Of a DNA stretch of 17,075 bases, positions 1 through 15,997 are shown one piece after another. The first letter of the stretch is position 1; every line of letters starts with the position of its first letter. The notes beneath the pieces were generated by a model. That model did not search any database and was not told the DNA's origin. It saw only the letters and a program-made list of their open reading frames with translations. Both the position numbers and the translations under genes were made by a program. The DNA is from Bordetella parapertussis (GTDB lineage Bacteria > Pseudomonadota > Gammaproteobacteria > Burkholderiales > SG8-41): contig CAMBCD010000016.1 of assembly GCA_945863085.1 (NCBI GenBank), positions 1-17,075 on the forward strand, given 5' to 3'.

Positions 1-866
1 TGCGCGCGCAGCTGTTCGAGGGCGGCGGGGTTGCGCTTCTGCGGCATGATGCTGCTGGTGCCGGTTAGTTCGCCGCTGCCGAGCATGAACCACGGTGTCG
101 GTTCGGCGTACTGGGTGTGCAGGTCCTGCGCGAACATGCCGGTCTGCACCGCGGTCATCGCCCAGGCATTGGCGACATCGAGCGCGCTGTCGATGGGTGC
201 CAAGTGGTTGGCGTCGTAGGCGTTTTCGACAAGCCCTTCAAAACCCAGCAGTTCTGCCAGGCGGTGCCGGTCGAGCGGGAAGCTGGAGGTCGCCAGCGCT
301 GCCGTGCCCAGCGGGCATTGGTTCACCCGCGTGTAGGCCTGCTGCAGGCGCTCGGTCGCGCGCGCGAGGGCGGACTCAAAGGCCAGCAGGTAATGCGCAA
401 ACGTCGTCGGCTGCGCCTGCACGCCGTGGGTGTAGGCGGGGATGATGGTTTCGATGTGTTCTTCCGCGCGCTTGAGCAGTTTCTCGCGGTCGGCGATCAG
501 CGCTTCAATCGTTTTCAGCAGCCCGTCGCGCAGGTTCATCCGCGCAATGGTCGAGGCCAGGTCCTGCCGGCTGCGGCCGGTGTGCAAACGGGACGCCTCC
601 TGTTCGGCGACGGCGATCAGGCGGGGTTCGTAATCCAGATAATCCGCGGAGGTGCGTTTCTCACCGGTCTTTTCATTTTCGATGACCTGCGCGATGCCCT
701 TGGCGATGCGCTTCGCCACGTCCTTCGGCACGATGCCGGTCTCGGCGAGCATGACGATGCAGGCCTTGTTGATTTCATCGAGCCATTCAATCGAACGGCC
801 GCCGCCGCGGAAGGTGGCGTTGATGTCGAGGGTGTGGCCGCTGTCGCTCATTGTTTTACTGCTCAT
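1..866 (-). CDS. Argininosuccinate lyase/fumarase superfamily lyase, 3' end cut by window edge
   Basis: Read from ATG at 866 down to the window edge, this gives 288 residues of a homotetrameric lyase that would eliminate fumarate or a similar leaving group across a C-N or C-O bond. Visible family motifs are HTGRSRQD (residues 95-102), a THG at 147-149, and the signature GTSSIMPQKRNP (269-280), which carries the mobile catalytic-serine loop. The C-terminal third is missing because the window ends. The N-terminus lacks the LWGGRF opening usual for biosynthetic ArgH and begins directly in the first helical region, so I infer a catabolic paralogue rather than the arginine enzyme. No good Shine-Dalgarno precedes 866; a second in-frame ATG lies at 851, so the start is uncertain by five residues. 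The AT-rich motif at 985-1013 is oriented towards this gene, with the inverted repeat 896-967 between. Alternative identities include aminopolycarboxylate C-N lyases of the ArgH-like branch. Confidence 0.85.
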   Translation of the reverse strand, partial: MSSKTMSDSGHTLDINATFRGGGRSIEWLDEINKACIVMLAETGIVPKDVAKRIAKGIAQVIENEKTGEKRTSADYLDYEPRLIAVAEQEASRLHTGRSRQDLASTIARMNLRDGLLKTIEALIADREKLLKRAEEHIETIIPAYTHGVQAQPTTFAHYLLAFESALARATERLQQAYTRVNQCPLGTAALATSSFPLDRHRLAELLGFEGLVENAYDANHLAPIDSALDVANAWAMTAVQTGMFAQDLHTQYAEPTPWFMLGSGELTGTSSIMPQKRNPAALEQLRA

Positions 867-2760: not shown

Positions 2761-3726
2761 TTAATTTTTAATACCGGCGCGTTTGACGATTTCGGCGGCC
2801 CGTTTCATTTCGGTGGCCAGATGCGTCTGGAACTGCTTGGGTGAACTGCCGCGCGGATCCGCGCCGTCGTTGAGCACCCGGCTCTTGACGTCCGGCGCTT
2901 CGATGGCCTTTTTCATTTCGTCGCTGAGCCTGTTTACGATGGCGGCAGGCGTGTTGGCCGGCGCAAGCAAACCGTACCAGGTGGTGGTCTGAAATCCCGG
3001 CACGCCTGCTTCGGCGATGGTCGGCAGTTCGGGTGCGCCGGCGGATCGTGTGCCGCCGGTGACGCCCAAAGCGCGGAGGCGCCCGTTTTTAACATGGCCC
3101 AGCGAAGACAGGACGCTGCCAAAGGTCATGTGTACCTGTCCGGCGATCACATCGACCAGTGCGGGGCCAGCGCCCTTGTAAGGAATATGAACAATTTTTA
3201 CGTTGGCCAGGTAGGTAAACAGTTCGCCGGCGAGGTGTCCCGAACTGCCATTGCCGCCCGAGGCGTAGTTGAGCACCCCCGGCTTTGCTTTTGCAAACGC
3301 CACCAGGTCTTTCACCGAGCGCACCGGCATTGAGGGATGTACCACCAGTAAAAAAGGTGCTTCGGCAATCAGCGAGACCGGCATCAGATCTTTCACCGGG
3401 TCAAAAGGCAGATCGGTATAAAGGCTGGGGTTGATGGCATAACTGCTGGAGACCACCAGCAGGTTGTAACCATCAGGCGCGCTTTTCGCGACAAACGCTG
3501 CGCCGATGGAGCCGGCTGCGCCGGTGCGATTTTCCACCACCACGGTCTGGCCCATTTGTTCGCCGAGTTTGGGGCTGACCAGCCGCGCGATCACATCAGT
3601 GGCACCGCCCGGCGCCTGGCCGACGATCAGGCGGACGGGTTTGTTGGGATAGGGGGTTTGCGCGTGGGCATAAAACGAAATGCCGGATGCCAGCAGTGCA
3701 GATGCCAGAACAAGTACCTTCGCCAT
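2761..3726 (-). CDS. TctC/Bug-family periplasmic carboxylate-binding protein
   Basis: This 321-residue protein begins with a Sec signal peptide (hydrophobic stretch about 3-20, likely cleavage after AHA near 22). It then shows the Bug-family opening YPNKPVRLIVGQAPGGATD, a conserved APDGYNLL (about 84-91), HIPYKG in the middle, and a C-terminal TWYGLLAPANTP. The family binds carboxylic acids in the periplasm for tripartite tricarboxylate transporters (TctABC), or for sensing. No TctA or TctB gene is present in the window, so it must share a permease encoded elsewhere or serve as a sensor. A gagg Shine-Dalgarno precedes ATG at 3726. It is divergent from the GntR regulator at 3907, which probably controls it through the shared 180-bp spacer. 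The ligand is unknown. Confidence 0.95.
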   Translation of the reverse strand: MAKVLVLASALLASGISFYAHAQTPYPNKPVRLIVGQAPGGATDVIARLVSPKLGEQMGQTVVVENRTGAAGSIGAAFVAKSAPDGYNLLVVSSSYAINPSLYTDLPFDPVKDLMPVSLIAEAPFLLVVHPSMPVRSVKDLVAFAKAKPGVLNYASGGNGSSGHLAGELFTYLANVKIVHIPYKGAGPALVDVIAGQVHMTFGSVLSSLGHVKNGRLRALGVTGGTRSAGAPELPTIAEAGVPGFQTTTWYGLLAPANTPAAIVNRLSDEMKKAIEAPDVKSRVLNDGADPRGSSPKQFQTHLATEMKRAAEIVKRAGIKN

Positions 3727-3836: not shown

Positions 3837-3844
3837 TGTATACA
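3837..3844. promoter_or_regulatory. TGTATACA palindrome, candidate GntR operator
   Basis: The 8-bp perfect palindrome tgtataca fits the GT-N-N-AC core that FadR-subfamily GntR proteins commonly bind. It lies 63 bases before the GntR start and 110 bases before the divergent binding-protein start, where autoregulation and joint control would be expected. An 8-mer is short, so this is a candidate only. I saw no second copy in the window. Confidence 0.45.
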
Positions 3845-3906: not shown

Positions 3907-4599
3907 ATGCCGAGCGCCAGCACGCCGGGAGCGAAATCGGGACCGAAAGCACTGCGCCACGGTTCGCGCAGTGAACACGCCTATCGACGCCTGCGCGACG
4001 CCATCCAGCAGGGGCAGTTCGCCTCCGGCCACCGGGTGATGGAAGTCGAGATCGCGGCCTGGCTCAACCTGAGTCGCACCCCCGTGCGTGACGCGATACG
4101 GCGCCTGGAAAGCGAAGGCATTCTTGAGCACGAACCCCGCAACGGCCTGATTGTTGCCCATCTCGACCGGCAGGCGGTGATGGAGCTCTACGCCATGCGC
4201 GAGGTGCTCGAAGGCACGGCCGCGCGGCTTTGTGCGCGCCACGCCTCCGACATTGAAGTGCAGTCCCTGCTGGATCTGGTGGAGCGGGAGCGCCAGCTGG
4301 CGGGCAACCACGAGGCGCTGTCGCAGAACAACCGGCGATTCCATGAGGCGATACACCGCGGGGCACACAACCGTTATCTGGAAAAGAGCCTTGCTGCGGT
4401 GAATGACTCGATGTGGCTGCTGGGCTCGCCGCTGATGTTGTTGCCCGGGCGCGCACAGACGGCGGCCAGGGAGCATGCGGCGCTGGCGGAAAACATCGCG
4501 CAGCGTGACGCCGACGCTGCAGAGAAGGTCGCGCGCGCGCATGTGCAGGCCGCGCAGCGCGAACGGCTGAAGCGGCTGTTCCCCGAAACCGAGGCTTAG
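3907..4599 (+). CDS. GntR-family transcriptional regulator, FadR/FCD subfamily
   Basis: The 230-residue product has an N-terminal winged helix-turn-helix (about 22-85) with the family signature LNLSRTPVRDAIRRLESEG (54-72). A C-terminal helical FCD domain (about 92-215) follows. His146 (RRFHEAI), His190 (REHAAL) and His212 fit the metal-binding histidine triad that helps FCD domains hold carboxylate effectors. It likely represses the divergent TctC gene and the downstream catabolic genes until the substrate or an intermediate binds; this is inferred from position. The Shine-Dalgarno is weak (gaagaaag upstream of ATG 3907). An 80-base gap separates it from the aconitase-like genes, which could be in the same transcript. 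Confidence 0.94.
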   Translation: MPSASTPGAKSGPKALRHGSRSEHAYRRLRDAIQQGQFASGHRVMEVEIAAWLNLSRTPVRDAIRRLESEGILEHEPRNGLIVAHLDRQAVMELYAMREVLEGTAARLCARHASDIEVQSLLDLVERERQLAGNHEALSQNNRRFHEAIHRGAHNRYLEKSLAAVNDSMWLLGSPLMLLPGRAQTAAREHAALAENIAQRDADAAEKVARAHVQAAQRERLKRLFPETEA

Positions 4600-4679
4600 T
4601 CAGCGGCTTGCCTGACCTGCGCTGGTTGCGGGACGGCATGCCGATTACCGAAACATTCTCGAATTAACCGGATTTGTTC

Positions 4680-5960
4680 ATGGCGCAGACGATGGCGGAA
4701 AAGCTGCTCACGCGGCACAACCTTGCCGGTGAGGAGGTGCGGGCAGGCGATTTTCTCGAGGCGCGGATCGACGGCGCGATGTGTCATTACCACGCCGCTG
4801 AACCCATGCACGATCTGGCGATCGAGGCCGGCTTCAAGGATGGTTTGCCCCGGGTGTGGGATCGCAGCAAGGTATATGTGCTGCTGGATCACCACCAGCC
4901 CACGCTCAGCCAGAAACTGGCGGATGAAAATGCGCTGGCCCGCCGCGAAGTCGAACGGCTGGGCATCAAGTGTTTTCATGATTCCGAGCCCGGCATTGCC
5001 CACCAGATGATGCTCGACTACGGCCTGGTGCGGCCCGGCGAACTGGTGGTCGGCAATGATTCTCACACCCTGGGTTATGGATCGGTCAATGCCGGCGCCA
5101 CCGGCATCACCCGCGCCGACATGCTTTATGTGCTGCTTTATGGTGAGTTGTGGTTTCAGGTGCCGCAGTCGGTGCGGGTGGTGCTCGACGGCAAACGGCC
5201 GGATTACCCGATTGCGAAAGACATCATTCTTTATCTGGCCGGTCAGTACGGCGACGACTTTGCGCAGGGCATGTCGATTGAATACTCCGGCACGCTGGCG
5301 TCGCAACTGTCCATCGACAGCCGCATGTGCCTGTCGACGCACGGTGTGGAGGTCGGCGCCAAATTCGCGATGTTCGGCATGGATGAAGTGACGCGGCAGT
5401 TCGTCAGCGCCAGGACGGCGCTGCCCTTTGAAGCGCTGACTGCAGACCAGGGCGCGCAGTATGCAAAGGAAATCCGGCTCTCCGTGGACGACATGCCTTT
5501 CGTGGTCGCCAAACCCCACCAGTTCGGCAACGTGGTCCCGGTAGACGAGGCGCGGGGCACACGCATCAACCAGGCGCAGATCGGTTCCTGCGCCAACGGG
5601 CGCTTTGAGGACATCGAAATTGCGGCGCGTGTGCTGAAAAAGCACAAGGTCGCGAAAGGTGTGCGTTTCCTGATCTCGCCGGCCTCGCAGCAGGTTTATC
5701 TGCAATGCCTCAAGGCGGGTCTGATCGAAACGCTGATCGAGGCCGGCGCCCAGGTCATCACGCCCGGCTGCGGCATTTGCCAACCCCGTGTCGGTTTCCT
5801 GTCCGATGGCGAGGTCTGCATTACCGCCACCACACGCAATTTCAAGGGACGCAAAGGCAGCGCCAAGGCCGAGATTTACCTGGGCGGCCCGCTCACGGTG
5901 GCGGCCGCAGCGGTGGCCGGCGAAATCGTCAACCCGAAGGAGGTGTTCAGTGGGCTTTGA
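4680..5960 (+). CDS. Aconitase/LeuC-family hydro-lyase, large subunit
   Basis: This 426-residue protein is the [4Fe-4S] subunit of a two-part hydro-lyase of the LeuC/homoaconitase type. It opens with MAQTMAEKLL, like LeuC, and carries LLDHHQPT (68-75) and GNDSHTLGYG (125-134). Cluster ligands are Cys304 (IGSCANGRFEDIE), Cys364 and Cys367 (TPGCGICQPR), and the 60-residue spacing plus CxxC is as expected for LeuC. It should dehydrate or hydrate a 2- or 3-hydroxy tri- or dicarboxylate through a cis-alkene. No other leucine gene is nearby; the neighbours are a TcuA-like dehydrogenase and an isocitrate-lyase-family enzyme. A cis-aconitate-like substrate is therefore more likely than isopropylmalate. 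ATG 4680 is preferred over the TTG at 4674; the Shine-Dalgarno is poor. The last 11 bases overlap the small subunit. Confidence 0.93.
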   Translation: MAQTMAEKLLTRHNLAGEEVRAGDFLEARIDGAMCHYHAAEPMHDLAIEAGFKDGLPRVWDRSKVYVLLDHHQPTLSQKLADENALARREVERLGIKCFHDSEPGIAHQMMLDYGLVRPGELVVGNDSHTLGYGSVNAGATGITRADMLYVLLYGELWFQVPQSVRVVLDGKRPDYPIAKDIILYLAGQYGDDFAQGMSIEYSGTLASQLSIDSRMCLSTHGVEVGAKFAMFGMDEVTRQFVSARTALPFEALTADQGAQYAKEIRLSVDDMPFVVAKPHQFGNVVPVDEARGTRINQAQIGSCANGRFEDIEIAARVLKKHKVAKGVRFLISPASQQVYLQCLKAGLIETLIEAGAQVITPGCGICQPRVGFLSDGEVCITATTRNFKGRKGSAKAEIYLGGPLTVAAAAVAGEIVNPKEVFSGL

Positions 5961-6492
5961 CCTCAATCGGCTGATCCGTGGCCGGGTATGGAAGTTCGGC
6001 GATTCGATCGAGACCGACGCCATCAATCCCTACTACCAGTATCCGACCATGGAGGAATTGAAGCAGCACACCATGGAAGTGTACCGACCCGAGTTTCCGC
6101 GCGAGGTAAAACCCGGCGACGTCATGATCGCGGGGCGCAACTTCGGCTGCGGATCCAGCAGGCCCGGCCTGGTGCTGCGCGAAGTGGGCATCGCCGCGAT
6201 CATCGCCGAGTCGGTGTCGCGTCTTTTTTTGCGCAACAGCATCTCGCGGGCGATCCCGATTTTTGTAGTGCCGGGCATCACTGCTTTGGCAGAGGACGGC
6301 GACACGCTGGAAGTGGATTACCCGAAAGGCGTGATCGTGAACCCCGCCACCGGCGCCACTTTGCCGGTCAATAAATACCCCGCGGGCGTCGAACAGATCT
6401 TCGAGTGCGGCGGATTGCTGCAGTTTGCTTATGAACGTTATATCCGTGAGGCCGCGCTGGCCGGGCGTAGCGGTCTGGAAAAGCAGGATTGA
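5950..6492 (+). CDS. Aconitase/LeuD-family hydro-lyase, small subunit
   Basis: This 180-residue swivel-domain subunit partners the preceding large subunit to complete the active site. The start is GTG 5950, inside the end of the large-subunit gene, chosen because a perfect aaggagg (5937-5943) lies six bases before it. A longer in-frame extension upstream only reads the other gene out of frame. The early residues GRVWKFGDSIETDAINP and the substrate-recognition loop GRNFGCGSSR (62-71) are typical. The residues after it are PGLVLRE, unlike the REHAPWAL of true LeuD, which supports a different substrate. The 11-base overlap implies translational coupling and 1:1 subunit production. The gene ends two bases before the first ATG of the FAD dehydrogenase. 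Confidence 0.93.
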   Translation: MGFDLNRLIRGRVWKFGDSIETDAINPYYQYPTMEELKQHTMEVYRPEFPREVKPGDVMIAGRNFGCGSSRPGLVLREVGIAAIIAESVSRLFLRNSISRAIPIFVVPGITALAEDGDTLEVDYPKGVIVNPATGATLPVNKYPAGVEQIFECGGLLQFAYERYIREAALAGRSGLEKQD

Positions 6493-6494
6493 AT

Positions 6495-6518
6495 ATGGGA
6501 AAGAATATGGGAAAGAAT
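6495..6518 (+). repeat. 12-bp tandem repeat carrying start codons
   Basis: atgggaaagaat occurs twice in a row (6495-6506, 6507-6518) and is followed by atggcaaat, giving the N-terminus MGKNMGKNMANT. Each unit brings its own ATG preceded by a purine-rich stretch that can act as a ribosome-binding site. It is in frame, so copy-number slippage would change only the N-terminal length and the number of initiation sites. Confidence 0.85.
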
Positions 6519-8021
6519 ATGGCAAATACGTACGATGTAATCGTGGTGGGCGGCGGCAACGCCGCGCTTTGTGCCGCCTTGTCGGCGCGCGAGAATGATG
6601 CGAGCGTTCTGTTGCTGGAGCGTGCCCCGGAAGCACAGCGCGGCGGCAACAGTGCGTACACCGGCGGCGGTTTTCGCATGGTGCACCATGGTGCGGATAC
6701 CGTGAGAACGGTCGTGCCGGATCTCTCCGAGGGGGAGATCGCCAATACCGATTTCGGTGAATACACCACCGAGCAGTACCTCGACGATCTGGGCCGCGTC
6801 ACGCAATATTATTGCGACCCGGACCTGGCGGAGATGCTGGTGCTCAACAGTACCGAGACCGTGCAATGGCTGCACGGCAGGGGTGTGCGTTTTGTGCCGC
6901 GCTTCGGGCGTTATGCGTTCAAACACGAAGGCAAGTTCAAGTTCTTCGGCGGCACGGTGGTCGAGGCGGCAGGCGGTGGACGAGGCCTGGTGCAGGCTGA
7001 ATATACGGCCGCTGAAAAACATGGCGTGGATATCCGCTACGGCGCCCAGGCCATCGGCCTGATCTGCGGCAGCGACGGTATTCAGGGTGTACGTGTGCGG
7101 GCGAACGGCGTCGAAGAGGAAATCAGCGCCAAGGCCGTGGTGCTTGCGGCGGGCGGCTTTGAGGCCAATCGCGAATGGCGCGCGCGTTACCTGGGGCCGG
7201 GCTGGGACATGGCCAAGGTGCGCGGCACCCGCTACAACACCGGTGACGGCATACGCATGGCCATCGATATCGGGGCGCAGCCGTACGGGCAGTGGTCAGG
7301 CTGTCACTCTGTTTCCTGGGAACGGTATGCGCCGGATTTCGGCGAACTCGACCGGCCGATCACCGCGAGCCGCAACGGATACCCGTTCAGCATCATGGTG
7401 AATGCCGAGGGCAAACGCTTCGTCGATGAAGGCGCCGACTTCCGCAACTATACGTATGCGAAGTACGGCCGCGTGGTTCTGGAGCAGCCGGGCGGTTACG
7501 CATGGCATGTCTTTGATTCGCAGGTGGACCACCTGCTGCATGACGAGTACCGCTCCAAGGGCACGACCAAAGTCCAGGCGGATACGCTTGAGGAGCTGGT
7601 GGCGAAGATGGAAGACGTCAACCCGCCGCAGTTCCTGAAGACCGTGCGTGAGTTCAACGCGGCGGTGAAACGGGACGCCGCGTTCAACCCCAACATCAAG
7701 GACGGCAAGTGCACGACCGGGCTCGCCATCGAGAAATCGAACTGGGCCAACCCGCTGGAGAAGGCGCCTTTCTCGGCCTATGCCGTGACTTGCGGCATCA
7801 CCTTCACTTTCGGCGGGCTGAAGATCGACACCGCGACCCGCGTGCTCGACATTGCGGACGCGCCGCTGCCGGGCCTGTTCGCCGCCGGTGAGCTGGTCGG
7901 CGGGCTGTTTTATTTCAACTATCCCGGCAGTTCCGGTCTGATGGCGGGCTCGGTGTTCGGGCGCATCGCCGGGCGCGAGGCCGCGGCGCACGCGCGCGGC
8001 GCATTATCGAAAGCGGCCTGA
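6495..8021 (+). CDS. tcuA: FAD-dependent dehydrogenase, tricarballylate dehydrogenase (TcuA)-like
   Basis: The product is about 508 residues in the fumarate reductase/succinate dehydrogenase flavoprotein fold. It has an N-terminal ADP-binding motif DVIVVGGGNAALCAA (14-28), then LLLERAPEAQRGGNSAYTGGG, characteristic of TcuA-like proteins. A central substrate-capping domain includes RFVDEGADFRNYTYAKYG. The C-terminal flavin region is GLFAAGELVGGLFYFNYPGSSGL. TcuA oxidises tricarballylate to cis-aconitate, passing electrons onward, and an aconitase-like enzyme directly upstream would accept such a product. I infer desaturation of a propane-tricarboxylate-like acid. Three in-frame ATGs (6495, 6507, 6519) come from a 12-bp tandem repeat; agga at 6485-6488 favours 6495. 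The true start could be any of the three. The symbol is by family resemblance only. Confidence 0.88.
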   Translation: MGKNMGKNMANTYDVIVVGGGNAALCAALSARENDASVLLLERAPEAQRGGNSAYTGGGFRMVHHGADTVRTVVPDLSEGEIANTDFGEYTTEQYLDDLGRVTQYYCDPDLAEMLVLNSTETVQWLHGRGVRFVPRFGRYAFKHEGKFKFFGGTVVEAAGGGRGLVQAEYTAAEKHGVDIRYGAQAIGLICGSDGIQGVRVRANGVEEEISAKAVVLAAGGFEANREWRARYLGPGWDMAKVRGTRYNTGDGIRMAIDIGAQPYGQWSGCHSVSWERYAPDFGELDRPITASRNGYPFSIMVNAEGKRFVDEGADFRNYTYAKYGRVVLEQPGGYAWHVFDSQVDHLLHDEYRSKGTTKVQADTLEELVAKMEDVNPPQFLKTVREFNAAVKRDAAFNPNIKDGKCTTGLAIEKSNWANPLEKAPFSAYAVTCGITFTFGGLKIDTATRVLDIADAPLPGLFAAGELVGGLFYFNYPGSSGLMAGSVFGRIAGREAAAHARGALSKAA

Positions 8022-8023
8022 AC

Positions 8024-8959
8024 ATGGACACGGTCAAAAAATCCGCGCGTTTGCGCGAACTGATACAGCGCAAGGACAAGGTACTGGTGGTCTTGCATCC
8101 GCCGACGGCGACCCATGCCCGCATCATGGAGCAGGCCGGCTGCGAATGCGGCTTTGTCGGCACCAGCGGTGTCGTTGGCTCCTACACCGGACTGTCGGAT
8201 GTGGGTACGGCGACCATGACCGAATGTGTACAGATCGCGGGATGGATCGCACAAAGCGCGAAATTCCCGGTCATCATGGACGGTGACACCGGGCATGGTG
8301 GCATCATGGCGGTGCGCAGGATGGTGCGGGAATGCATACGCGCCGGCGTGGCCGGCGTGCGGATTGATGACCAGCCGATCGAGGGCAAGCGGCGCACGCA
8401 AAGCGCCGGGGTCGAGGTGGTGCCGGTGGAGCAGGCGATCGCACGTTATCGCGCCGCCGTGGACATGAAGAACGAGATTGATCCGGATTTTGTGATCATG
8501 TCGCAGTGTTATGCGCGGGACGCGGTGAACAGCAGCCTTGAAGACTGCATCCGCCGCCTGCAGCTTTACCGTTCCGAGGCGGGTGTGGACTGGGTGCAAC
8601 TCGAGTCGCCGCATTCGCTGGACGAGATCAGGCAGGCGCGGGCTGCGGTCGAGGGGCCGCTTTCGTTCATGAAGGGCAAACTCCCGCGTTACCTCGGGCT
8701 GGACGAACATCTGGCGCTCGGCGTCAACATCGCCTGGTATCCCGGATTCACGCACGAGGTGATGTGGGCGGCGCTGCATGATTTCATGCAGGATTTCCAG
8801 AGTCGCGGAATTGTGGCGTGGGAGGATTTTCAGGCCAGCCGCAGGAACAACCCCTATCCGCGTCCCGATCCCGGTCCCGATGGTGAGGGCGGCGAAAAGC
8901 AGCGTGAGCTGGAGGAGCGTTACATGGCCGCTGCTGCGTTGAAAAAATACGCGGGTTGA
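8024..8959 (+). CDS. Isocitrate lyase/PEP mutase superfamily enzyme with altered catalytic loop
   Basis: The 311-residue product is a TIM barrel of the PEP mutase/isocitrate lyase family, whose members cleave or form C-C or P-C bonds in 2-hydroxy di- and tricarboxylates. Visible are FVGTSGVVGSYTGLSDVG (44-61, substrate phosphate/carboxylate loop), the metal motif MDGDTGHGG (Asp86, Asp88) and RIDDQ (113-117), where Asp115 replaces the usual Glu of IEDQ. The following loop reads GKRRTQSAG (121-129). Lyases of this family have K-K/R-C-G-H there with a catalytic Cys, and PEP mutases have an N-S motif, so this enzyme fits neither. Position suggests it splits the hydrated product made by the aconitase-like pair. 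It starts two bases after the FAD gene stop. The exact reaction is unknown. Confidence 0.9.
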   Translation: MDTVKKSARLRELIQRKDKVLVVLHPPTATHARIMEQAGCECGFVGTSGVVGSYTGLSDVGTATMTECVQIAGWIAQSAKFPVIMDGDTGHGGIMAVRRMVRECIRAGVAGVRIDDQPIEGKRRTQSAGVEVVPVEQAIARYRAAVDMKNEIDPDFVIMSQCYARDAVNSSLEDCIRRLQLYRSEAGVDWVQLESPHSLDEIRQARAAVEGPLSFMKGKLPRYLGLDEHLALGVNIAWYPGFTHEVMWAALHDFMQDFQSRGIVAWEDFQASRRNNPYPRPDPGPDGEGGEKQRELEERYMAAAALKKYAG

Positions 8960-9021
8960 CCTGCGGTGTTTACGACCGGCGGCGCAGCGGTTTATTCATG
9001 GCCTGATGAGCTGAGGTAATC

Positions 9022-9049
9022 GAGCGTGGCAAATTGAGCATGGCAAATA
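9022..9049 (+). repeat. 14-bp imperfect tandem duplication across the CapA-like start codon
   Basis: gagcgtggcaaatt (9022-9035) is followed directly by gagcatggcaaata (9036-9049), identical at 12 of 14 bases. The first copy has GTG (9026-9028) reading V-A-N then TGA (9035-9037); the second has the real ATG (9040). A gagg Shine-Dalgarno near 9013-9016 is well placed for the GTG but too far from the ATG, so initiation at the gene may depend on re-initiation after the three-codon minicistron. Confidence 0.7.
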
Positions 9050-10152
9050 CGGTGACACTGATGGCCTGCGGCGACGTTGGTCCTATCCACGAGCCGGTCG
9101 ATGCCTATGCTGCGCTGGCAAAACCGGTTCTGGCGGCGGCGGACATCCGGTTTGCGCAGGTCGAGCGTGTTTATTCAGAGCGCGGCGCGTTCCAGGTGCA
9201 TTCCGGCGGTGCACACAGCCGGGTGAAGCCGCATATGGCCTCGGTGTTCTCGGAATGCGGCTTCGATGTGTTGTCCCTCGCCAGCAACCATGCAATGGAT
9301 TGGGGCGAGGATGCCCTGCTCGATACGGTGGCCTTGTTCCGCGGCAAGGGCTTTCAGGTCATCGGTGCGGGCCGCAACCTGAGCGAGGCGCGCGCTCCGG
9401 CCATTATCGAAAAAAACGGTATCAAGACCGCCTTTCTGGCCTATTGCTCGATATTGCAGGCGGGATACGCCGCCGGGCCTGACCGCGCGGGCATCGCCCC
9501 CATGCGCGCCCACACTTATTACGAGCCCTTCGATTACCAGGCCGGTGTGCCGCCGCGGGTGGTTACGGTGCCGTATGCAGAAGATCTTGCCGGCATGGTT
9601 GAAGACATCCGCCGCGCCAGGGGCCTGGCCGACAACGTCGTGGTCTCTCTGCACTGGGGCATCCATTACATCCCGCGCCTGATTGCCGATTATCAGGTGA
9701 CTGTAGCCAATGCGGCATTTGATGCCGGAGCCGGTCTGATACTCGGCCACCACGCGCATACACCCAAGGCGGTGGGCGTGCACCAGGGCAAAGTCTGTTT
9801 CTACAGCCTGTCCAACTTCATCATGTCCTCGACCGCCAAGACTCCGGAGAAGGCGGCGGCATTCGAGAAGCGTTACGGCGTCGTTCTTGATGCGGATTAT
9901 CCGCACCTGTCCTATGGCGCCGACGCCAAACGCAGCCTTATTGCCAAGGCTCATTTGTCCCGCGATGGTGTCAAACGCGTGTCATTCCTTCCGGTGTTGA
10001 TCGACAAGGCGCTGCGTCCGGAAGTGTTGCGCCATGGCGATGATCGTTTTGACGATGCTGTGCGCTTCATGGATTGGGTGTCTGAAGATTTTGCACACCG
10101 TTTCACGGTCGAGGGTGACGAAGTGGTGGTAACCGCGGGTAAAAGCGTGTGA
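9040..10152 (+). CDS. CapA-family (PGA_cap) metallophosphatase-like protein
   Basis: This 370-residue protein belongs to the CapA/PgsA group, a calcineurin-like metallophosphoesterase fold named after a poly-gamma-glutamate capsule protein. Likely metal or active-site residues are Asp12 (MACGDVGP), Asn83-His84 (LASNHAMDWG), His205 (SLHWGIHY) and His237/His238/His240 (LGHHAHTPK). There is no signal peptide or membrane anchor, unlike exported CapA of Gram-positives, so a cytoplasmic hydrolase or ligase-like role is more likely. No CapB or CapC is present. It lies 80 bases after the lyase-family gene and 32 before the second TctC gene, within the catabolic run. Its part in that pathway is unclear; hydrolysis of a phospho-, amide- or ester-linked precursor is a guess. 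The start is complicated by the duplication at 9022-9049. Confidence 0.88.
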   Translation: MANTVTLMACGDVGPIHEPVDAYAALAKPVLAAADIRFAQVERVYSERGAFQVHSGGAHSRVKPHMASVFSECGFDVLSLASNHAMDWGEDALLDTVALFRGKGFQVIGAGRNLSEARAPAIIEKNGIKTAFLAYCSILQAGYAAGPDRAGIAPMRAHTYYEPFDYQAGVPPRVVTVPYAEDLAGMVEDIRRARGLADNVVVSLHWGIHYIPRLIADYQVTVANAAFDAGAGLILGHHAHTPKAVGVHQGKVCFYSLSNFIMSSTAKTPEKAAAFEKRYGVVLDADYPHLSYGADAKRSLIAKAHLSRDGVKRVSFLPVLIDKALRPEVLRHGDDRFDDAVRFMDWVSEDFAHRFTVEGDEVVVTAGKSV

Positions 10153-10184
10153 TGCTGGACTGATAAAACAAGAGGAGGTGTAGC

Positions 10185-11162
10185 ATGAAGGCTCTATTAT
10201 TGATGGTGATTCTGGCCAATGTTGGTATCGCCAACATGGCAGCTGCACAACAAAATCCATCCGGCTACCCATCCAGGCCGGTGCGGATTCTGGTCGGAAC
10301 TCCCGCCGGAAGTGGCAGCGATCTGATGACGCGTGCAGTCGCGCAAAAACTCTCCGAGCGTTTTGGGCATTCTGTCGTCGTCGACAATCGCCCCGGTGCA
10401 ACCGGGGCGATTTCGCTGCAAATTGGTACCCAGGCCGCCCCGGACGGCTACACGCTGGTCGCGCTCAGCGCGCAGAACGTGACGGCGATGCTCCTCGGCA
10501 CGGTGACCACCAACATTTCAAAAGAGCTCACGCCGGTGGGCATGATTCTGTCGCAGCCGTATCTGATGGTGGCAACGCCATCCCTGCCCGCAGCTTCGGT
10601 CAAGGAATTGATTGCTCTGGCCAAGGCGAAGCCACTGGTATACGCCTCAAGTGGCGTCGGCTCGGTTGTGCATCTGGGCATGGAATTATTCAAGTCCATG
10701 GCCGCGATCGAGATGACGCATATCCCTTATAAAGGCAGCGGCCTGTCGATGATCGATGTGATGGGTGGCCGGGTTAATCTTGCAATAACCAATACCCTCA
10801 CGGCGTCACCACTGGTCCGGAGCGGCAAGCTGAAAGCGCTCGCGATCACCAGTCCGCAGCGGGTACAGGCCATGCCCGATGTGCCGACCGTTGCGGAAAC
10901 CGTGCCTGGTTATGATCTGCGCAGCTGGTATGGCCTGCTTGCGCCCAACGGCACCCCGGCGGCCGTCGTGCTGACGCTCAATCGTGAGGTCAGTGCAGTG
11001 GTCAATGCGCCGGAAATGAAGGAACGGCTGGCCGCGGACGGTGCCGAAGCGGCGCCGCCGAATACGCCGGCGCAGTTCCGGGCTTTGATCCTTGCCGAGA
11101 CTCAGCGCTGGGGAAAAATCATCAACAACCTTGGGCTGGGCAAAAAGCCGGAGGTGAAATGA
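10185..11162 (+). CDS. TctC/Bug-family periplasmic carboxylate-binding protein
   Basis: The 325-residue product has a Sec signal peptide (hydrophobic about 3-20, cleavage near AAA-QQ at 21-22). It then shows the Bug hallmarks YPSRPVRILVGTPAGSGSD, APDGYTLV, THIPYKGSG and SWYGLLAPNGTP. It should capture a carboxylate in the periplasm and hand it to a tripartite transporter or report it to a sensor. Its place inside the enzyme operon implies that its ligand is the pathway substrate. A strong ggagg at 10174-10178 lies six bases before ATG 10185. Its stop overlaps the next gene's start as ATGA, indicating coupling. No TctA or TctB partner is in view. It is clearly diverged from the binding protein at 2761-3726, so the two may bind different acids. 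Confidence 0.95.
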   Translation: MKALLLMVILANVGIANMAAAQQNPSGYPSRPVRILVGTPAGSGSDLMTRAVAQKLSERFGHSVVVDNRPGATGAISLQIGTQAAPDGYTLVALSAQNVTAMLLGTVTTNISKELTPVGMILSQPYLMVATPSLPAASVKELIALAKAKPLVYASSGVGSVVHLGMELFKSMAAIEMTHIPYKGSGLSMIDVMGGRVNLAITNTLTASPLVRSGKLKALAITSPQRVQAMPDVPTVAETVPGYDLRSWYGLLAPNGTPAAVVLTLNREVSAVVNAPEMKERLAADGAEAAPPNTPAQFRALILAETQRWGKIINNLGLGKKPEVK

Positions 11163-12616
11163 GCGGAGGCACTGCTGCCGGGAAAAGGGATGCCGCCCGC
11201 AATCCGCCGGGCGTTACCCGCGCCCTTTCCCGGCATGCGGCGACACTGCAATACGAAGCGCTGCCGCCGGAGCTGGTCGATCTCATCAAGCAATGCGTGA
11301 TGGATACCCTGGGCGTCTCCATAGGCGCCAGCACGCTGGCGCCCGAGGCGGCGATCCTCGACGCCTATGTTGCCGACATGGGCGGCAAACCCGAAGCGAC
11401 GATACTCGGTTTCGGCAGCAAGGCGCCCGCGGCATGGGCGACGTTTGTCAACGGCAGCCTGGGCCACATGCTCGATTACGACGACATGGGCGAGAGCGGA
11501 CATCCCGGCATTGTCACGATTCCGGTTGCGTTCGCAGTCGCGGAAAAGATGGGTGGCGTCGATGGCCGTGAACTGATTACGGCCATTGCCGCGGGCATGG
11601 ACATCATGACGCGCATCAGCCGCGCGATCGACGTCCCCGACTGGACCATGGCCGAGGGCTGGTTTGCGACGCAACTGATCGGCTTCGCTGCCGGCGCCGC
11701 GACTGCCGGCAGGCTGCTGAAGCTCGACCCGGAGCAGATGGAGAATGCGCTCGGCATCGGCTTCAACCAGATGAGCGGCACGCGCCAGATGGCCGAAGGC
11801 GCAGCGACACACATGCGTTCGATGCAGGCCGGCTTCTCCGGTCAGGGGGCGGTGCTCGCAGCGGAACTCGCACGGCGCGGCATCATCGGCTCCAAGGACT
11901 TTGTCGAGGGACGTTACGGTTTTTTCAGGACCTACATTCGTGGCTGCGAGCCCGACTGGGACGGGATCGTGGACGGGCTCGGCGTGAAGTTTCCGATCCT
12001 CGAGAAGCACGGCTTCAAGGTGTGGCCGGCATGCGCCTACACACGCACGACAAATACTTCGACACTGGCCATCCGGGAGCAGCATGGCCTCAAGCCCGAG
12101 GACATCGAGTCGATCACCATCGTCGGCGGCACCGGCGGTACTCAGCAACTGTGTGAGCCGCTCGCAGCAAAGCGCCGGCCCAAAGTCAGCATTGATGGAA
12201 AGTTCAGCATCCCCTTCACGACTGCGGTGATGATGGCGAAGGGCAACGTGACGCTGCGCGATTACACCGAGGAGGGGCTTCGCGATCCGGCGGTGCTCGC
12301 CATGGCCGACCGGGTCAGTTACCGGGCGGGCACCGGGCCGGTCACGGGCAAGGGCGGCTCACAGGACGTGTCGAAGACCTCGGTCGAGATCGTCACCCGT
12401 GACGGCCGGCGTTTTGAACACCGGTCGACCAGCGTCCCCGGCGACGCGAAGAACCCGGTTTCCTGGGAGCGCCTCGAGGCAAAGTTCCGCGACTGCGTGT
12501 CGTTTTCCCTGAAACCGGTTGCGGCGCATCACTTGAATTCGGCCGTTGCACTCATACAGGCGCTGGAAGCGGAGCCGGATGCCACCGGGGTGGTTCGCTT
12601 GCTGGCGGGACCTTGA
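11159..12616 (+). CDS. MmgE/PrpD-family protein (2-methylcitrate dehydratase/aconitate-decarboxylase family)
   Basis: At 485 residues this matches the usual size of the MmgE/PrpD family. The N-terminal helical domain includes VMDTLGVSIGAS (48-59) and the family motif LDYDDMGESGHPG (105-117); the His of HPG is at 115 and is implicated in catalysis in relatives. Later stretches VWPACAYTR and KFSIPFTTA are also typical. Characterised members dehydrate 2-methylcitrate (PrpD) or decarboxylate cis-aconitate to itaconate (CAD). In this operon either activity would act on a tricarboxylate intermediate. The start ATG 11159 overlaps the TctC stop (ATGA), with ggagg at 11150-11154. It is the last gene of the plus-strand run; no clear terminator follows. 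Confidence 0.93.
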   Translation: MSGGTAAGKRDAARNPPGVTRALSRHAATLQYEALPPELVDLIKQCVMDTLGVSIGASTLAPEAAILDAYVADMGGKPEATILGFGSKAPAAWATFVNGSLGHMLDYDDMGESGHPGIVTIPVAFAVAEKMGGVDGRELITAIAAGMDIMTRISRAIDVPDWTMAEGWFATQLIGFAAGAATAGRLLKLDPEQMENALGIGFNQMSGTRQMAEGAATHMRSMQAGFSGQGAVLAAELARRGIIGSKDFVEGRYGFFRTYIRGCEPDWDGIVDGLGVKFPILEKHGFKVWPACAYTRTTNTSTLAIREQHGLKPEDIESITIVGGTGGTQQLCEPLAAKRRPKVSIDGKFSIPFTTAVMMAKGNVTLRDYTEEGLRDPAVLAMADRVSYRAGTGPVTGKGGSQDVSKTSVEIVTRDGRRFEHRSTSVPGDAKNPVSWERLEAKFRDCVSFSLKPVAAHHLNSAVALIQALEAEPDATGVVRLLAGP

Positions 12617-13054: not shown

Positions 13055-14017
13055 CTAACGCTTGGGAATGATCTCGTCGAGCCCCACACCTTCCAGCGCG
13101 CCGAACAGTTCCGCGATTTTTTGCCGGTCGGCGGCGGGCAGCGGCGGCTGCAGGATGGCCTTGATGTTGGGCGCCAGGTGATCGGGATTGCCGGTGCCGA
13201 ACAGCACGACGTTGGCGCCGGGTTCGTGTCGCGCATAGCGGTAGGCGGCTTCGATGATGTCGCGTGCGCCCTGGTCGTGCAGCAGGAAATCCAGCGGATT
13301 TTTCTTTTCCGCGAGCCATTTCGGCAGCTTGCCCGCCGTGGCGAGTTCGGTAATGTCCTGCTGCAGCCGCCCCGGCACGCTGAAAATCGCGCGCACCGCG
13401 AACATCAGCAGCGTGCCGATGTTTTTGGCCTGCGCCGCCGGAAACACCCGCTGCCGCGCATTCTGGTTGAGCATGTGGAAGGCGACCATCTTCACGTCCC
13501 AGCAGTCGTCGCCGAGCGCGCGGGCGAGCATGTCGTGCCGCGGATCGCGTCCGGCGAATTCGGTGATGCCGAGAAAACGGAATTTGCCCTTTTCCTTTTC
13601 GCGCAGCAGCGGCGGGACGATCTCGGCCAGCACGCGGTCGTATTCCTGCGGCAGCACGGTGTGCAGGCAGAACACATCGACATGGTCGGTGCCCAGCGCG
13701 CGCAGCGATCGGTCAAGCCCGGCGAGGATTTCGGCGACGGAGAAAACCGTGCCGTCGATCAATGAGACTTTGTGTTTGGTGGAAATGACGATGGAATCGC
13801 GCGGCCGGCCGTGGATCGCTTCACCGACCGCGGGTTCGGTGCCGTAGTACTGCGCGGTGTCGATGAAGTTGACGCCGAGGTCGAGTGCGCGCTGCACGAT
13901 GCCCACCGCATGGGCCTTGTCGTGGCCGGTGCCCAGCCCGAGTTTGCTGTTGCCGCCGCAGCCGAGGCCGGCGACGCTGACCTTGAGTCCGGTACGGCCG
14001 AGGGTGGTGTATTCCAT
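13055..14017 (-). CDS. Aldo/keto reductase family oxidoreductase
   Basis: The 320-residue TIM-barrel protein opens with MEYTTLGRTGLKVSVAGLGC, typical of AKR proteins. The catalytic tetrad is visible as Asp53 (NFIDTAQYYG), Tyr58, Lys81 (ISTKHK) and His119 (VFCLHTV). It should reduce an aldehyde or ketone, or oxidise the alcohol, using NADPH or NADH; the middle segment (130-260) is divergent, so substrate class is open. The start at 14017 has no visible Shine-Dalgarno (preceding bases gctgccccт on the minus strand carry none), so initiation may be from a very short leader. The AT-rich motif copy C (14031-14060) lies just 14 bases upstream and may be its promoter. Confidence 0.92.
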   Translation of the reverse strand: MEYTTLGRTGLKVSVAGLGCGGNSKLGLGTGHDKAHAVGIVQRALDLGVNFIDTAQYYGTEPAVGEAIHGRPRDSIVISTKHKVSLIDGTVFSVAEILAGLDRSLRALGTDHVDVFCLHTVLPQEYDRVLAEIVPPLLREKEKGKFRFLGITEFAGRDPRHDMLARALGDDCWDVKMVAFHMLNQNARQRVFPAAQAKNIGTLLMFAVRAIFSVPGRLQQDITELATAGKLPKWLAEKKNPLDFLLHDQGARDIIEAAYRYARHEPGANVVLFGTGNPDHLAPNIKAILQPPLPAADRQKIAELFGALEGVGLDEIIPKR

Positions 14018-14030
14018 AGGGGCAGCTTAC

Positions 14031-14060
14031 TAAAAAATATCAATAAAAACAATGTCTTAT
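14031..14060 (-). promoter_or_regulatory. AT-rich shared motif, copy C (candidate promoter/operator)
   Basis: On the minus strand: TATAAGACATTG, then TTTTTATTGATATTTTTTA, sharing 14 exact bases (TTGTTTTTATTGAT) with copy A and the TAAG-CATTGTTTT core with copy B. It is 14 bases from the aldo/keto reductase start. Taking TTGTTT as -35 with a 17-base spacer gives TAAGCT as a weak -10 almost at the start codon. The promoter reading is inference. Confidence 0.45.
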
Positions 14061-14067
14061 AAATATA

Positions 14068-14083
14068 GTTACAAATATGTGAC
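14068..14083. promoter_or_regulatory. 16-bp imperfect inverted repeat, candidate operator
   Basis: gttacaaatatgtgac has half-sites gttaca and tgtgac, which pair with one mismatch across a 4-base centre. It sits between the convergence point of motif copy C and the stop of the next minus-strand gene, about 50 bases upstream of the aldo/keto reductase. It could bind a GntR- or CRP-like dimer. Confidence 0.35.
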
Positions 14084-14092
14084 GCGCGAATA

Positions 14093-14770
14093 CTACACGA
14101 CGGGCCAGATGCGGCAACCCACCGCCGGTGAATATGGCGCGTGCTGGAGTTGCGGTACCACGCGGCCCATCCAGGTATCCGGGTCATCACGCTCGGCTTC
14201 GTGCGGCGCGAAATGCTGCTCGCGCAATTCGAGGCTGCTGAATTCGTGCAGGATCGCGTGTTTGTAGCTGCCGACGGTCGCCAGCATTTTGCGTGCGCCG
14301 ACACAGCCGGGCAATGTTGCCAGCAGCGGAAACCGTTGTTGTGCGTACCAGCCGCCGAGGTCGTCTTCGACCGCGGGTGAGGGCGCGTTGTAATGGCCGA
14401 TCTGCACCACCGGCGCCGCGGTCAGGCCGGGGCTGCGTCTGCCGGCATCGGGACCATCAACACGCGTTTCTTCGGCGAGGATGCAGGCGGCGGCGTTGAT
14501 GCGCATGGCGATGAATGTTCTGGTTTCGGTGTTTTGCCGCGTCGCGAGCTGGCCGGGACTGGGATTGAGAAAGGTCTGCGTGGTTTCGCCGCCGAACAGG
14601 GCGAGATAACCCTGGCCGCGCCCGCCGTGGCCCAGTGCGTAATGCGCGGCCCAGCGGTAACCGGGACGTGACAGTTTTTCGGGAATATGGACGCGATGGA
14701 ACCAGTCCAGGTATTCCGTCCTGTTGTTGTCGGCGATGTCGTACCAGATGGCCCAGATGCCGCGATCCAT
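14093..14770 (-). CDS. Two-domain small protein, probable dimeric alpha/beta-barrel fold, function unknown
   Basis: The 225-residue product appears to hold two related halves. Residues about 1-110 contain WYDIADNNRTEYLDWFHRVH and IPEKLSRPGYRWAAHYAL; residues about 118-215 contain IGHYNAPSPAVEDDLGGWYA and FPLLATLPGCVGARKML. The pattern 'D...EF/Y..W...HIPE....PG....RY' is typical of EthD-like and related dimeric alpha/beta-barrel proteins, which include small lyases and chaperone-like partners of catabolic enzymes. Start ATG 14770 is chosen because gggag lies a few bases before it; the longer open frame upstream overlaps the divergent amidohydrolase. It is divergent from the amidohydrolase with a 127-bp spacer and lies head-to-tail with the aldo/keto reductase, to which it may be co-transcribed. 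No catalytic residue can be assigned. Confidence 0.8.
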   Translation of the reverse strand: MDRGIWAIWYDIADNNRTEYLDWFHRVHIPEKLSRPGYRWAAHYALGHGGRGQGYLALFGGETTQTFLNPSPGQLATRQNTETRTFIAMRINAAACILAEETRVDGPDAGRRSPGLTAAPVVQIGHYNAPSPAVEDDLGGWYAQQRFPLLATLPGCVGARKMLATVGSYKHAILHEFSSLELREQHFAPHEAERDDPDTWMGRVVPQLQHAPYSPAVGCRIWPVV

Positions 14771-14897
14771 GTCTGCTCTCCCTGTTGCGGCGATTGTAAA
14801 GCAGCGCCGGGCGATGTCTGCTTCAAGGTCATGGTGTGGACATGGGGGCACTGGTATTCTGCGTGCCACAGTTGGTTCACGATCCACGGGGGAGTAC

Positions 14898-15965
14898 ATG
14901 AGCATACGCAACACAGAACACTGCTGCGCAGACCATAGCAGCCTCATTTTCACCGGCTGCAACATCAGCAATGCCGCGCAGGGGCCGGCGGGCGGGCGGC
15001 GCCGGCAGGTGCTGGTCGGCGGAAAACGCGTCAAAACCATCGACGTGCATGCGCATTGTGTGGTGGGCGAGGCGCTGGCCCTGCTCGGCATGAAGGTCGA
15101 AGACCAGCGTGGCCCCGGTATCGGTGACGTCGGTTCGCGGCGCATTGCGGAGATGGACGAGCAGGGAATCGACATCGAGGCGCTCAGCATCAATCCGACC
15201 TGGTATCGCGCCGAACGCGATGTGGCGGCGGAAGTGATCCGCATCCAGAACGACAGACTCGCCGAACATTGCGATAACTACCCCGACCGTTTTGTCGCGT
15301 TCGCGTCGGTGGCGCTGCAGTTTCCCGACCTCGCCGTGGAGCAGCTGGTGCATGGCGTGAAAAAACTCGGCCTGCGCGGTGCGGCGGTCGGCGCCAGTGT
15401 TGCGGGTGCGGAGTTTTCCGATCCCAGATTCCATCCGTTCTGGGCCAAGGCCGAGGAACTGGGCGTGCTGATTTTTATTCATCCGCAGAGTACGCCGCAA
15501 CTCGAACCGAGGTTCAAGGGCAACGGCTGGCTGTCGAACACCATCGGCAATCCGCTGGACACCACGATCGCGCTGTCGCACCTGATTTTTGAAGGCACGC
15601 TGGATCGTTTCCCCGGCCTGAAAATCTGTTCCGCGCACGGTGGCGGTTTCCTGCCGTCGTACGCGCCGCGTTCGGATCAGAGCCTGCGCGTCGCCCCGGA
15701 GATGGATACCGGGGTGAAGCTCAAGAAAAAACCGACCGAGTACCTGCGTGACATGTATTACGACACGCTGGTGTTTACCGACGAGGCGCTGCGCCACCTG
15801 GCGGCGGAAGTCGGCGTCAGCCAGCTGGTGATCGGCACCGACCACCCGATTCCCTGGCAGGCCGATTCGGTCAACCACATCCTCAACGCGCCGGGATTCA
15901 CCGACGCCGAGCGCCGGATGATGTTGGGTGAGACCGCGGCGAAGCTGCTGGGCATTCCGCTGTAG
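14898..15965 (+). CDS. ACMSD-type amidohydrolase (amidohydrolase 2 family)
   Basis: The 355-residue product is a metal-dependent TIM-barrel enzyme of the amidohydrolase-2 family, whose best-known members are decarboxylases such as ACMSD and several hydroxybenzoate decarboxylases. Metal and active-site residues are His51 and His53 (TIDVHAH), His195 (FIHPQS), His247 (SAHGGG) and Asp315 (GTDHP). The first 45 residues are an extension before the barrel, with His8, Cys9, Cys10, His13 and Cys21 (EHCCADH, FTGCN), perhaps an extra metal site. ATG 14898 is supported by a ggggg-ag stretch immediately before it. It heads an operon with the Tat-exported hydrolase 32 bases later. Decarboxylation or hydrolysis of an aromatic ring-cleavage product is a reasonable inference. 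Confidence 0.92.
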   Translation: MSIRNTEHCCADHSSLIFTGCNISNAAQGPAGGRRRQVLVGGKRVKTIDVHAHCVVGEALALLGMKVEDQRGPGIGDVGSRRIAEMDEQGIDIEALSINPTWYRAERDVAAEVIRIQNDRLAEHCDNYPDRFVAFASVALQFPDLAVEQLVHGVKKLGLRGAAVGASVAGAEFSDPRFHPFWAKAEELGVLIFIHPQSTPQLEPRFKGNGWLSNTIGNPLDTTIALSHLIFEGTLDRFPGLKICSAHGGGFLPSYAPRSDQSLRVAPEMDTGVKLKKKPTEYLRDMYYDTLVFTDEALRHLAAEVGVSQLVIGTDHPIPWQADSVNHILNAPGFTDAERRMMLGETAAKLLGIPL

Positions 15966-15997
15966 CTGTTCGCCTGATACCCAAACAGGAGATTGTC

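Follow-up and report, generated by a model that had tools for sequence, protein, structure and literature searches.

What does a bacterial gene cluster degrade when its enzymes recall the 2-methylcitrate cycle and the synthase of that cycle is missing? This question is raised by a 17,075-nucleotide stretch of DNA (contig CAMBCD010000016.1 of assembly GCA_945863085.1, recorded as Bordetella parapertussis), which is referred to here, at its full length, as the window. An initial annotation, made from the sequence, described eight plus-strand genes at positions 3907-12616, encoding a GntR regulator, LeuC- and LeuD-like subunits, a TcuA-like flavin adenine dinucleotide (FAD) protein, an isocitrate lyase (ICL)/phosphoenolpyruvate (PEP) mutase-fold protein (ICL-like protein), a CapA-like protein, a TctC protein, and an MmgE/PrpD protein. 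All eight are open reading frames, and Pfam and NCBIfam models placed them in the families named there. The conserved unit begins farther upstream than first described, at a divergent TctC gene (Table 1). We found that the cluster is a real, conserved, and probably GntR-controlled carboxylate unit; its gene families, gene order, probable shared operator, fold, and residue replacements are what was observed. The explanation that we prefer, at slightly less than even confidence, is that the unit serves the catabolism of an organic acid taken up from outside; most likely, this acid is neither tricarballylate nor 2-methylcitrate.

Conservation of the gene order

Relatives of the ICL-like protein were identified using the patterns DGDTGHGG and G[VI]RIDDQP; 128 were confirmed, and the loci of the best 80 were compared. 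Because all loci were fetched through this protein, the neighborhood counts are biased. The closest relatives found were betaproteobacterial metagenome bins, in which the ICL-like protein was 99% (locus L001) and 96% (L002) identical to that of the window. Names such as Bordetella or Chitinophaga derive from the titles of metagenome-bin records and could be incorrect. The nine-gene order TctC(divergent)-GntR-LeuC-LeuD-TcuA-ICL-like-CapA-TctC-PrpD was complete in 7 of the 80 loci (L001, L002, L003, L005, L007, L010, and L079), all of which carried the divergent TctC gene at the same place (71 to 93% identity). The single conserved unit for carboxylate catabolism proposed initially was thus borne out by the gene-order search. 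Within 8 kb of the ICL-like gene, LeuC was present in 25 loci, LeuD in 23, TcuA in 29, CapA in 18, PrpD in 28, and GntR in 15, and LeuC, LeuD, and TcuA occurred together in 22; for these counts the identity thresholds were set by us, and many loci are truncated by the end of a contig.

The same genes were also found in other arrangements. In L013, L014, and L034, the set TcuA-GntR-LeuC-LeuD-PrpD lay divergent to the ICL-like gene; the order was TcuA-ICL-LeuC-LeuD-TctC in L030, and L036 displayed another alternative. Shinella lacus CPCC 100929 (L049) encoded a TcuA (70% identity) and an ICL-like protein (71%) alongside TctA and LeuCD subunits that belong to a different subfamily (36 to 43%). 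In Burkholderia sp. Ax-1724, the ICL-like gene (L047) was separated from GntR, LeuC, LeuD, TcuA, TctA, TctB, and TctC, which lie on another contig (L110). Records holding the cluster were mostly titled Betaproteobacteria, parts of it occurred in Alphaproteobacteria, and the ICL-like subfamily was also present in records titled Rokubacteria and Chloroflexi. The ICL-like protein matched 226 plasmid records, each at less than 60% identity, so that no close member was found among them. A plasmid of Hydrogenophaga sp. BPS33 (L082, 7938-14504) carries TctC-TcuA-LeuC-LeuD-TctC-PrpF, with a PrpF-like isomerase gene in place of the ICL-like gene. At L102 (genome G004), an MLE-like enolase-superfamily gene and a second MmgE/PrpD gene lie near GntR, TcuA, LeuCD, and CapA, so that some versions of the cluster may include a lactone or cycloisomerase step. 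Within the terms used, the parts of the open-licence literature that were reached held no description of this gene set or of the ICL-like subfamily.

A palindrome shared by GntR, TcuA, and ICL-like genes

The palindrome TGTATACA formed the single run of invariant columns across all eight aligned TctC-GntR intergenic regions. Exact copies were present in 13 of 14 loci with a GntR orthologue, the exception being L009, versus 3 of the 66 loci without one (for this count the orthologue had to cover more than half its length, hence 14 loci and not 15). The corresponding Fisher test (p = 2.4e-11) overstates the association because related loci are not independent. Sixteen of the 17 copies in the 80 loci were located upstream of a GntR, TcuA, or ICL-like gene, at a distance of no more than 300 bp, and all 114 loci (1.69 Mb) contained 20 copies compared to 3.2 expected from a first-order model. 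Some loci that hold the core lack the site, among them L019, L030, L031, and L057, in which no copy within two mismatches was detected upstream. Two copies precede the ICL-like gene of Burkholderia sp. Ax-1724 (L047), and a copy with two mismatches lies upstream of TcuA on the other contig of this strain (L110); therefore, co-regulation of the ICL-like gene with TcuA and LeuCD is probable even when they are unlinked. From its distribution in these sequences, TGTATACA is probably the operator of the GntR regulator, common to the GntR, TcuA, and ICL-like promoters. The palindrome also precedes a tcuB-linked tcuA gene in Shinella sp. HZN7 (L086, 5922-5929), and the site may thus not be unique to this regulator.

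Replacement of hallmark residues in the ICL-like protein

The ICL-like protein adopts the fold of the ICL/PEP mutase superfamily, and D59, D86, and D88 were kept in all 80 subfamily sequences (that of the window and one per locus from 79 loci, as none was obtained from L064). The search patterns include D86, D88, and the Asp found in the Glu115 column, so that invariance there was partly selected; the CGH-loop and Arg/Gln positions lie outside them. The CGH-loop motif with its acid Cys was found in 0 of the 80 subfamily sequences versus 10 of 12 other family members. At the column of the carboxylate-binding Arg228 of Mycobacterium tuberculosis ICL, as matched by profile alignments, all 80 carried Gln (Gln161 in the window protein) and all 12 others Arg. 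Compared to the superfamily structures 1mum, 3eoo, 3fa3, 1zlp, and 1pym, the subfamily lacks CGH, with mostly Arg, Lys, Gly, or Ala at the Cys column, and has Gln at the Arg column and Asp at the Glu115 column. Judged by these alignments, the subfamily has lost both hallmark catalytic residues, the clearest case among three enzymes of the cluster with fixed active-site changes. Of the initial scheme of import, desaturation, hydration, and cleavage, the first three steps remain plausible (uptake via TctC), whereas cleavage by a PrpB-type lyase is not supported, given the missing CGH motif with its acid Cys and the replacement of the carboxylate-binding Arg.

An alternative would be that the ICL-like protein is not a C-C lyase but a hydrolase, decarboxylase, mutase, or binding protein, and that the unit stops at a hydrated or isomerized acid. 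We consider this unlikely, since the Arg was kept in all 12 other family members compared and its loss points to none of these kinds; to our knowledge, hydrolases, decarboxylases, and mutases of the superfamily also keep it. A phosphonate function was rejected, with scores of 89.7 bits for PhnR (cut-off, 271.5) and 55.1 bits for PEP mutase (cut-off, 319.55).

The FAD protein and tricarballylate

The initial annotation proposed the import of tricarballylate or a methylated relative and its oxidation to an aconitate by TcuA; the LeuCD-like enzyme would then hydrate this product, and a lyase of the PrpB/ICL type would cleave it. The FAD protein of the window indeed exceeded the cut-off of the broader TcuA model NF006130 (583.4 bits versus 369), and this proposal also agrees with the TctC genes, the conserved order, and the occurrence of TGTATACA before the HZN7 tcuA. 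However, the stricter model TIGR02485 was not reached (284.8 bits versus 372.55). The tcuB-adjacent TcuA of Shinella sp. HZN7, which is 39% identical to the window protein, scored 708.4 and 597.2 bits with the two models. According to passages of PMC10468695, Salmonella tcuA encodes a dehydrogenase and tcuB a quinone oxidoreductase. No match to tcuB better than E 5 was found in the window.

Separate tcuAB genes were found in relatives. The TcuB model exceeded its cut-off in 7 of 19 genomes holding an ICL-like gene, and in 6 of 16 related genomes searched with both proteins (G002, G003, G005, G009, G010, and G016), tcuB was adjoined by a TcuA only 38 to 39% identical to that of the window. The pair in G002, the genome of L002, was 60.7% (TcuA) and 52% (TcuB) identical to the HZN7 pair. 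Six tcuB-linked TcuA matches were flagged with one internal TGA; in the one that was checked, L088, this is the gene's own stop (frame 7448-8860). In a tree of 57 rows, eight tcuB-linked TcuA proteins fell on one side of a 100/100 branch and the window protein on the other; most remaining rows were fetched through the ICL-like protein, which biases their LeuC/ICL labels. Like tcuABC of Salmonella and tcuAB of the HZN7 plasmid, the latter with an aconitase gene nearby, the window encodes an FAD dehydrogenase of the same broad family. It differs from both in the missing tcuB match, in the uptake genes seen (TctC), and in an FAD protein that is 37 to 39% identical and belongs to another clade. 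Taken together, the model scores, the clade, the missing tcuB match, and the separate tcuAB genes lower the odds of tricarballylate chemistry for the window FAD protein, and in view of the replaced CGH motif and Arg in all 80 ICL-like sequences, we regard the tricarballylate scheme as quite improbable. On a haloarchaeal plasmid (L081, 7956-15007), genes for ICL-family, MmgE/PrpD, cupin, and TcuA-like proteins are neighbors, but the ICL-family protein there has the CGH Cys, and this case was set aside.

Comparison with the 2-methylcitrate cycle

The family names in the cluster resemble those of the 2-methylcitrate cycle (PrpB, PrpC, and PrpD or AcnD), and lyase, hydro-lyase, and PrpD superfamilies are common to both. 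The absence of PrpC noted initially was confirmed, as the synthase of a relative gave no tblastn match better than E 0.15 in the window. A variant of the cycle that takes 2-methylcitrate from outside would need no synthase. The window proteins, however, scored far below the equivalog cut-offs, with 121.8 versus 354.4 bits for PrpB, 26.0 versus 458 for PrpD, and 42.9 versus 1419.85 for AcnD. Moreover, elsewhere in the 16 related genomes, scores above cut-off were obtained for PrpB in 14 and for the 2-methylcitrate/citrate synthase II (PrpC-type) model in 11, so that cycle enzymes are separately available in most of these genomes. This set of 16 genomes and a further set of 22 were hand-picked from the genomes of the 80 loci, and absences in them weigh little since completeness is not stated. 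On the basis of the model scores and of the PrpB and PrpC-type genes elsewhere, we rejected a methylcitrate-cycle variant as a highly improbable explanation.

Active sites of the LeuCD-, MmgE/PrpD-, and CapA-like proteins

In the LeuC-like subunit, the Fe-S cysteine C306 was present in 27 of 27 orthologues and C366 and C369 in 26 of 27 (one gap). The LeuD-like subunit has the motif GSSRP (R68-P69, counted from base 5959) in 26 of 26 orthologues, with a two-residue gap, versus GSSRE in the three solved homologues found; passages of PMC7308503 describe GSSRE as highly conserved in small subunits and aconitases. In the Y-Y-x-Y loop of LeuD, the third residue is variable (R in 15, L in 7, K in 3, and Q in 1 of 26) and thus gives no carboxylate count.

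Genome G002 contains two more clusters (L095 and L096) in which LeuCD-like subunits are paired with ICL-family proteins containing KRCGH; one has an enolase-superfamily-like gene, and the other has two KRCGH lyases. The hydro-lyase DmdAB and 2,3-dimethylmalate lyase (Dml) act in the nicotinate fermentation of Eubacterium barkeri. In an analogous route, the FAD protein would convert an alkylsuccinate to an alkylmaleate, the LeuCD-like enzyme would turn this into a substituted malate, and the lyase would yield two carboxylates. The window shares with this system the pairing of a LeuCD-like hydro-lyase with an ICL/PEP mutase-fold protein; it differs in the additional FAD, TctC, CapA, and PrpD proteins and in an ICL-like protein without the Cys and Arg that such lyases use. 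With GSSRE changed to GSSRP in every LeuD orthologue, and with L095 and L096 fitting such a role better, we consider the alkylsuccinate route doubtful, about on a par with an ICL-like protein that is no lyase.

The MmgE/PrpD protein and all 27 of its orthologues keep D109, H115, K287, and C292, which correspond to D91, H102, K266, and C271 of Bacillus IRG1, and R296 is likewise present in 27 of 27. Compared to IDS epimerase and the cis-aconitate decarboxylase IRG1 (2hp3 and 7bra), the Asp, catalytic His, Lys, and Cys equivalents are thus kept; in contrast, F169 replaces His151 and R220 replaces Lys200 (Bacillus IRG1 numbering) in 27 of 27 orthologues. The loci also encode 26 MmgE/PrpD proteins that are less closely related; in these, the His151 column held His in 18 and Phe in 6, and the Lys200 column held Lys in 24, so that Phe at the former is not unique to the window type. 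In passages of PMC7347537, cis-aconitate docked into Bacillus IRG1 contacts D91, H102, K200, K266, and C271, and one carboxylate touches only H151. By analogy with this one docked residue in another enzyme, the Phe hints at a substrate with one carboxylate fewer. The human His159Ala variant retains reduced activity according to the part of PMC11814083 that covers it, so that loss of His151 alone does not exclude decarboxylation.

The only solved relatives of the CapA-like protein found by sequence were chains of the lasso-peptide epimerase MslH (8gq9), whose metal and dyad residues are given in passages of PMC10406935. By alignment with MslH, the CapA-like protein has equivalents of E44, N87/H88/D91, H259, and H295 but G209 at the equivalent of H261. 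With most of the metal and dyad residues described there kept and one replaced by Gly, the protein may be either an epimerase or a hydrolase. The unit contains two TctC genes, and no match to TctA or TctB better than E 0.19 was found in the window. TctA was encoded elsewhere in 16 of 16 related genomes, and TctA and TctB lie beside LeuCD-TcuA in L110.

A proposed catabolic unit for an imported organic acid

We infer each reaction, the order and direction of the reactions, and the substrate as follows. The TctC proteins, together with TctAB encoded elsewhere, would bind a di- or tricarboxylate. The TcuA-like flavoprotein would then introduce a C=C bond beside a carboxylate, and the LeuCD-like [4Fe-4S] hydro-lyase would add or move water. 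The ICL/PEP mutase-fold enzyme would act on the product, most likely still via a metal-stabilized enolate, although the group acted on would differ from the usual alpha-hydroxy acid. The MmgE/PrpD-like and CapA-like proteins may interconvert stereoisomers or open a derivative. A unit of this kind is supported by the whole order in 7 and the core in 22 of the 80 loci, the association of TGTATACA with GntR, the split arrangement in L047 and L110, and the partial set in L049, as well as by the fold and kept D59, D86, and D88 of the ICL-like protein, the kept Fe-S cysteines, and TctA elsewhere in every related genome searched.

Three observations weigh against this explanation. An amidohydrolase-family cluster lies beside the ICL-like gene in 41 of 80 loci (two members were checked with Pfam). 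Of the 22 genomes chosen because LeuC and TcuA were missing from the locus, 2 held a window-type LeuC (E ≤ 1e-100) and 9 held a close TcuA (E ≤ 1e-190); the ICL-like protein thus also occurs without these partners. Finally, the closest solved structures of the FAD protein are fumarate and urocanate reductases, so that its reaction may run in either direction. With somewhat less confidence still than the imported-acid unit itself, we tentatively propose a new catabolic pathway for an environmental organic acid, in which three families known from enzymes of tri- and dicarboxylates (ICL-fold, MmgE/PrpD, and LeuD) would each have been retooled at the active site and the chemistry of the ICL-like protein would be new to its superfamily.

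Gene features and flanking DNA

The features of the unit are listed in Table 1. The reading frames of LeuC and LeuD overlap if LeuD begins at the GTG at 5950, and for LeuC, relatives favor the ATG at 4680 over the TTG at 4674. TcuA and the ICL-like gene are separated by 2 bp, and the second TctC gene overlaps PrpD by 4 bp. No Rfam match at gathering scores and no tRNA was found in the window; promoter-like patterns numbered 4 versus 2.7 in shuffles, and terminator-like patterns 8 versus 8.0. Alignment inputs were the window with 19 of 120 listed proteins (A1), 47 of 80 loci (A2), 19 of 25 usable loci (A4), and 20 of 23 usable loci (A5).

Table 1. Positions of the unit's genes and of the palindrome in the window
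Feature	Position	Strand	Remarks
TctC solute-binding protein, divergent gene	2761-3726	minus	Pfam TctC, 258.7 bits
TGTATACA palindrome, probable GntR operator (predicted)	3837-3844		TctC-GntR intergenic region
GntR-family (FCD) regulator	3907-4599	plus	Pfam FCD and GntR
LeuC-like aconitase-superfamily large subunit	4674-5960	plus	Three NCBIfam subfamily models above cut-off, no equivalog above cut-off
LeuD/DmdB-like small subunit	5950-6492	plus	TIGR02087 above cut-off; probable GTG start at 5950
TcuA-like FAD dehydrogenase	6489-8021	plus	FAD_binding_2; start uncertain, 6489 to 6519
ICL/PEP mutase-fold protein (ICL-like), subfamily without CGH Cys motif and catalytic Arg	8024-8959	plus	
CapA/PGA_cap calcineurin-fold protein	9034-10152	plus	Pfam PGA_cap, 188.9 bits; ATG at 9040 likelier
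TctC solute-binding protein, second copy	10185-11162	plus	Pfam TctC, 210.2 bits
MmgE/PrpD-family protein, active-site residues replaced	11159-12616	plus	Pfam MmgE_PrpD N and C domains

At the left end of the window, a fumarase/argininosuccinate-lyase superfamily gene (3-866, minus strand; Pfam Lyase_1) runs off the window, and a REP-like perfect 27-nucleotide inverted repeat with an 18-nucleotide spacer (GTCATTCCGGCGAAAGCCGGAATCCAG; 896-967) lies between this gene and a GST gene. Downstream of the unit, positions 13055-16888 encode an aldo/keto reductase (minus strand), which is kept in L001 and L002, and an Amidohydro_2 protein and a dienelactone hydrolase (plus strand), possibly reflecting lactone or dienelactone metabolism next door.

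Implications for the ICL/PEP mutase superfamily

The ICL/PEP mutase superfamily is a model case of one metal-enolate scaffold evolving new reactions. A subfamily that is fixed for the loss of the CGH Cys and the Arg, and that is linked by gene order and a probable operator to desaturase- and hydro-lyase-like enzymes, constitutes a defined target for a new reaction. Such genes were met under the automatic labels TcuA, 2,3-dimethylmalate lyase, and 2-methylisocitrate lyase-like. On metagenome genes of this kind these labels are probably too specific, which would affect the carbon-flux models built on them.

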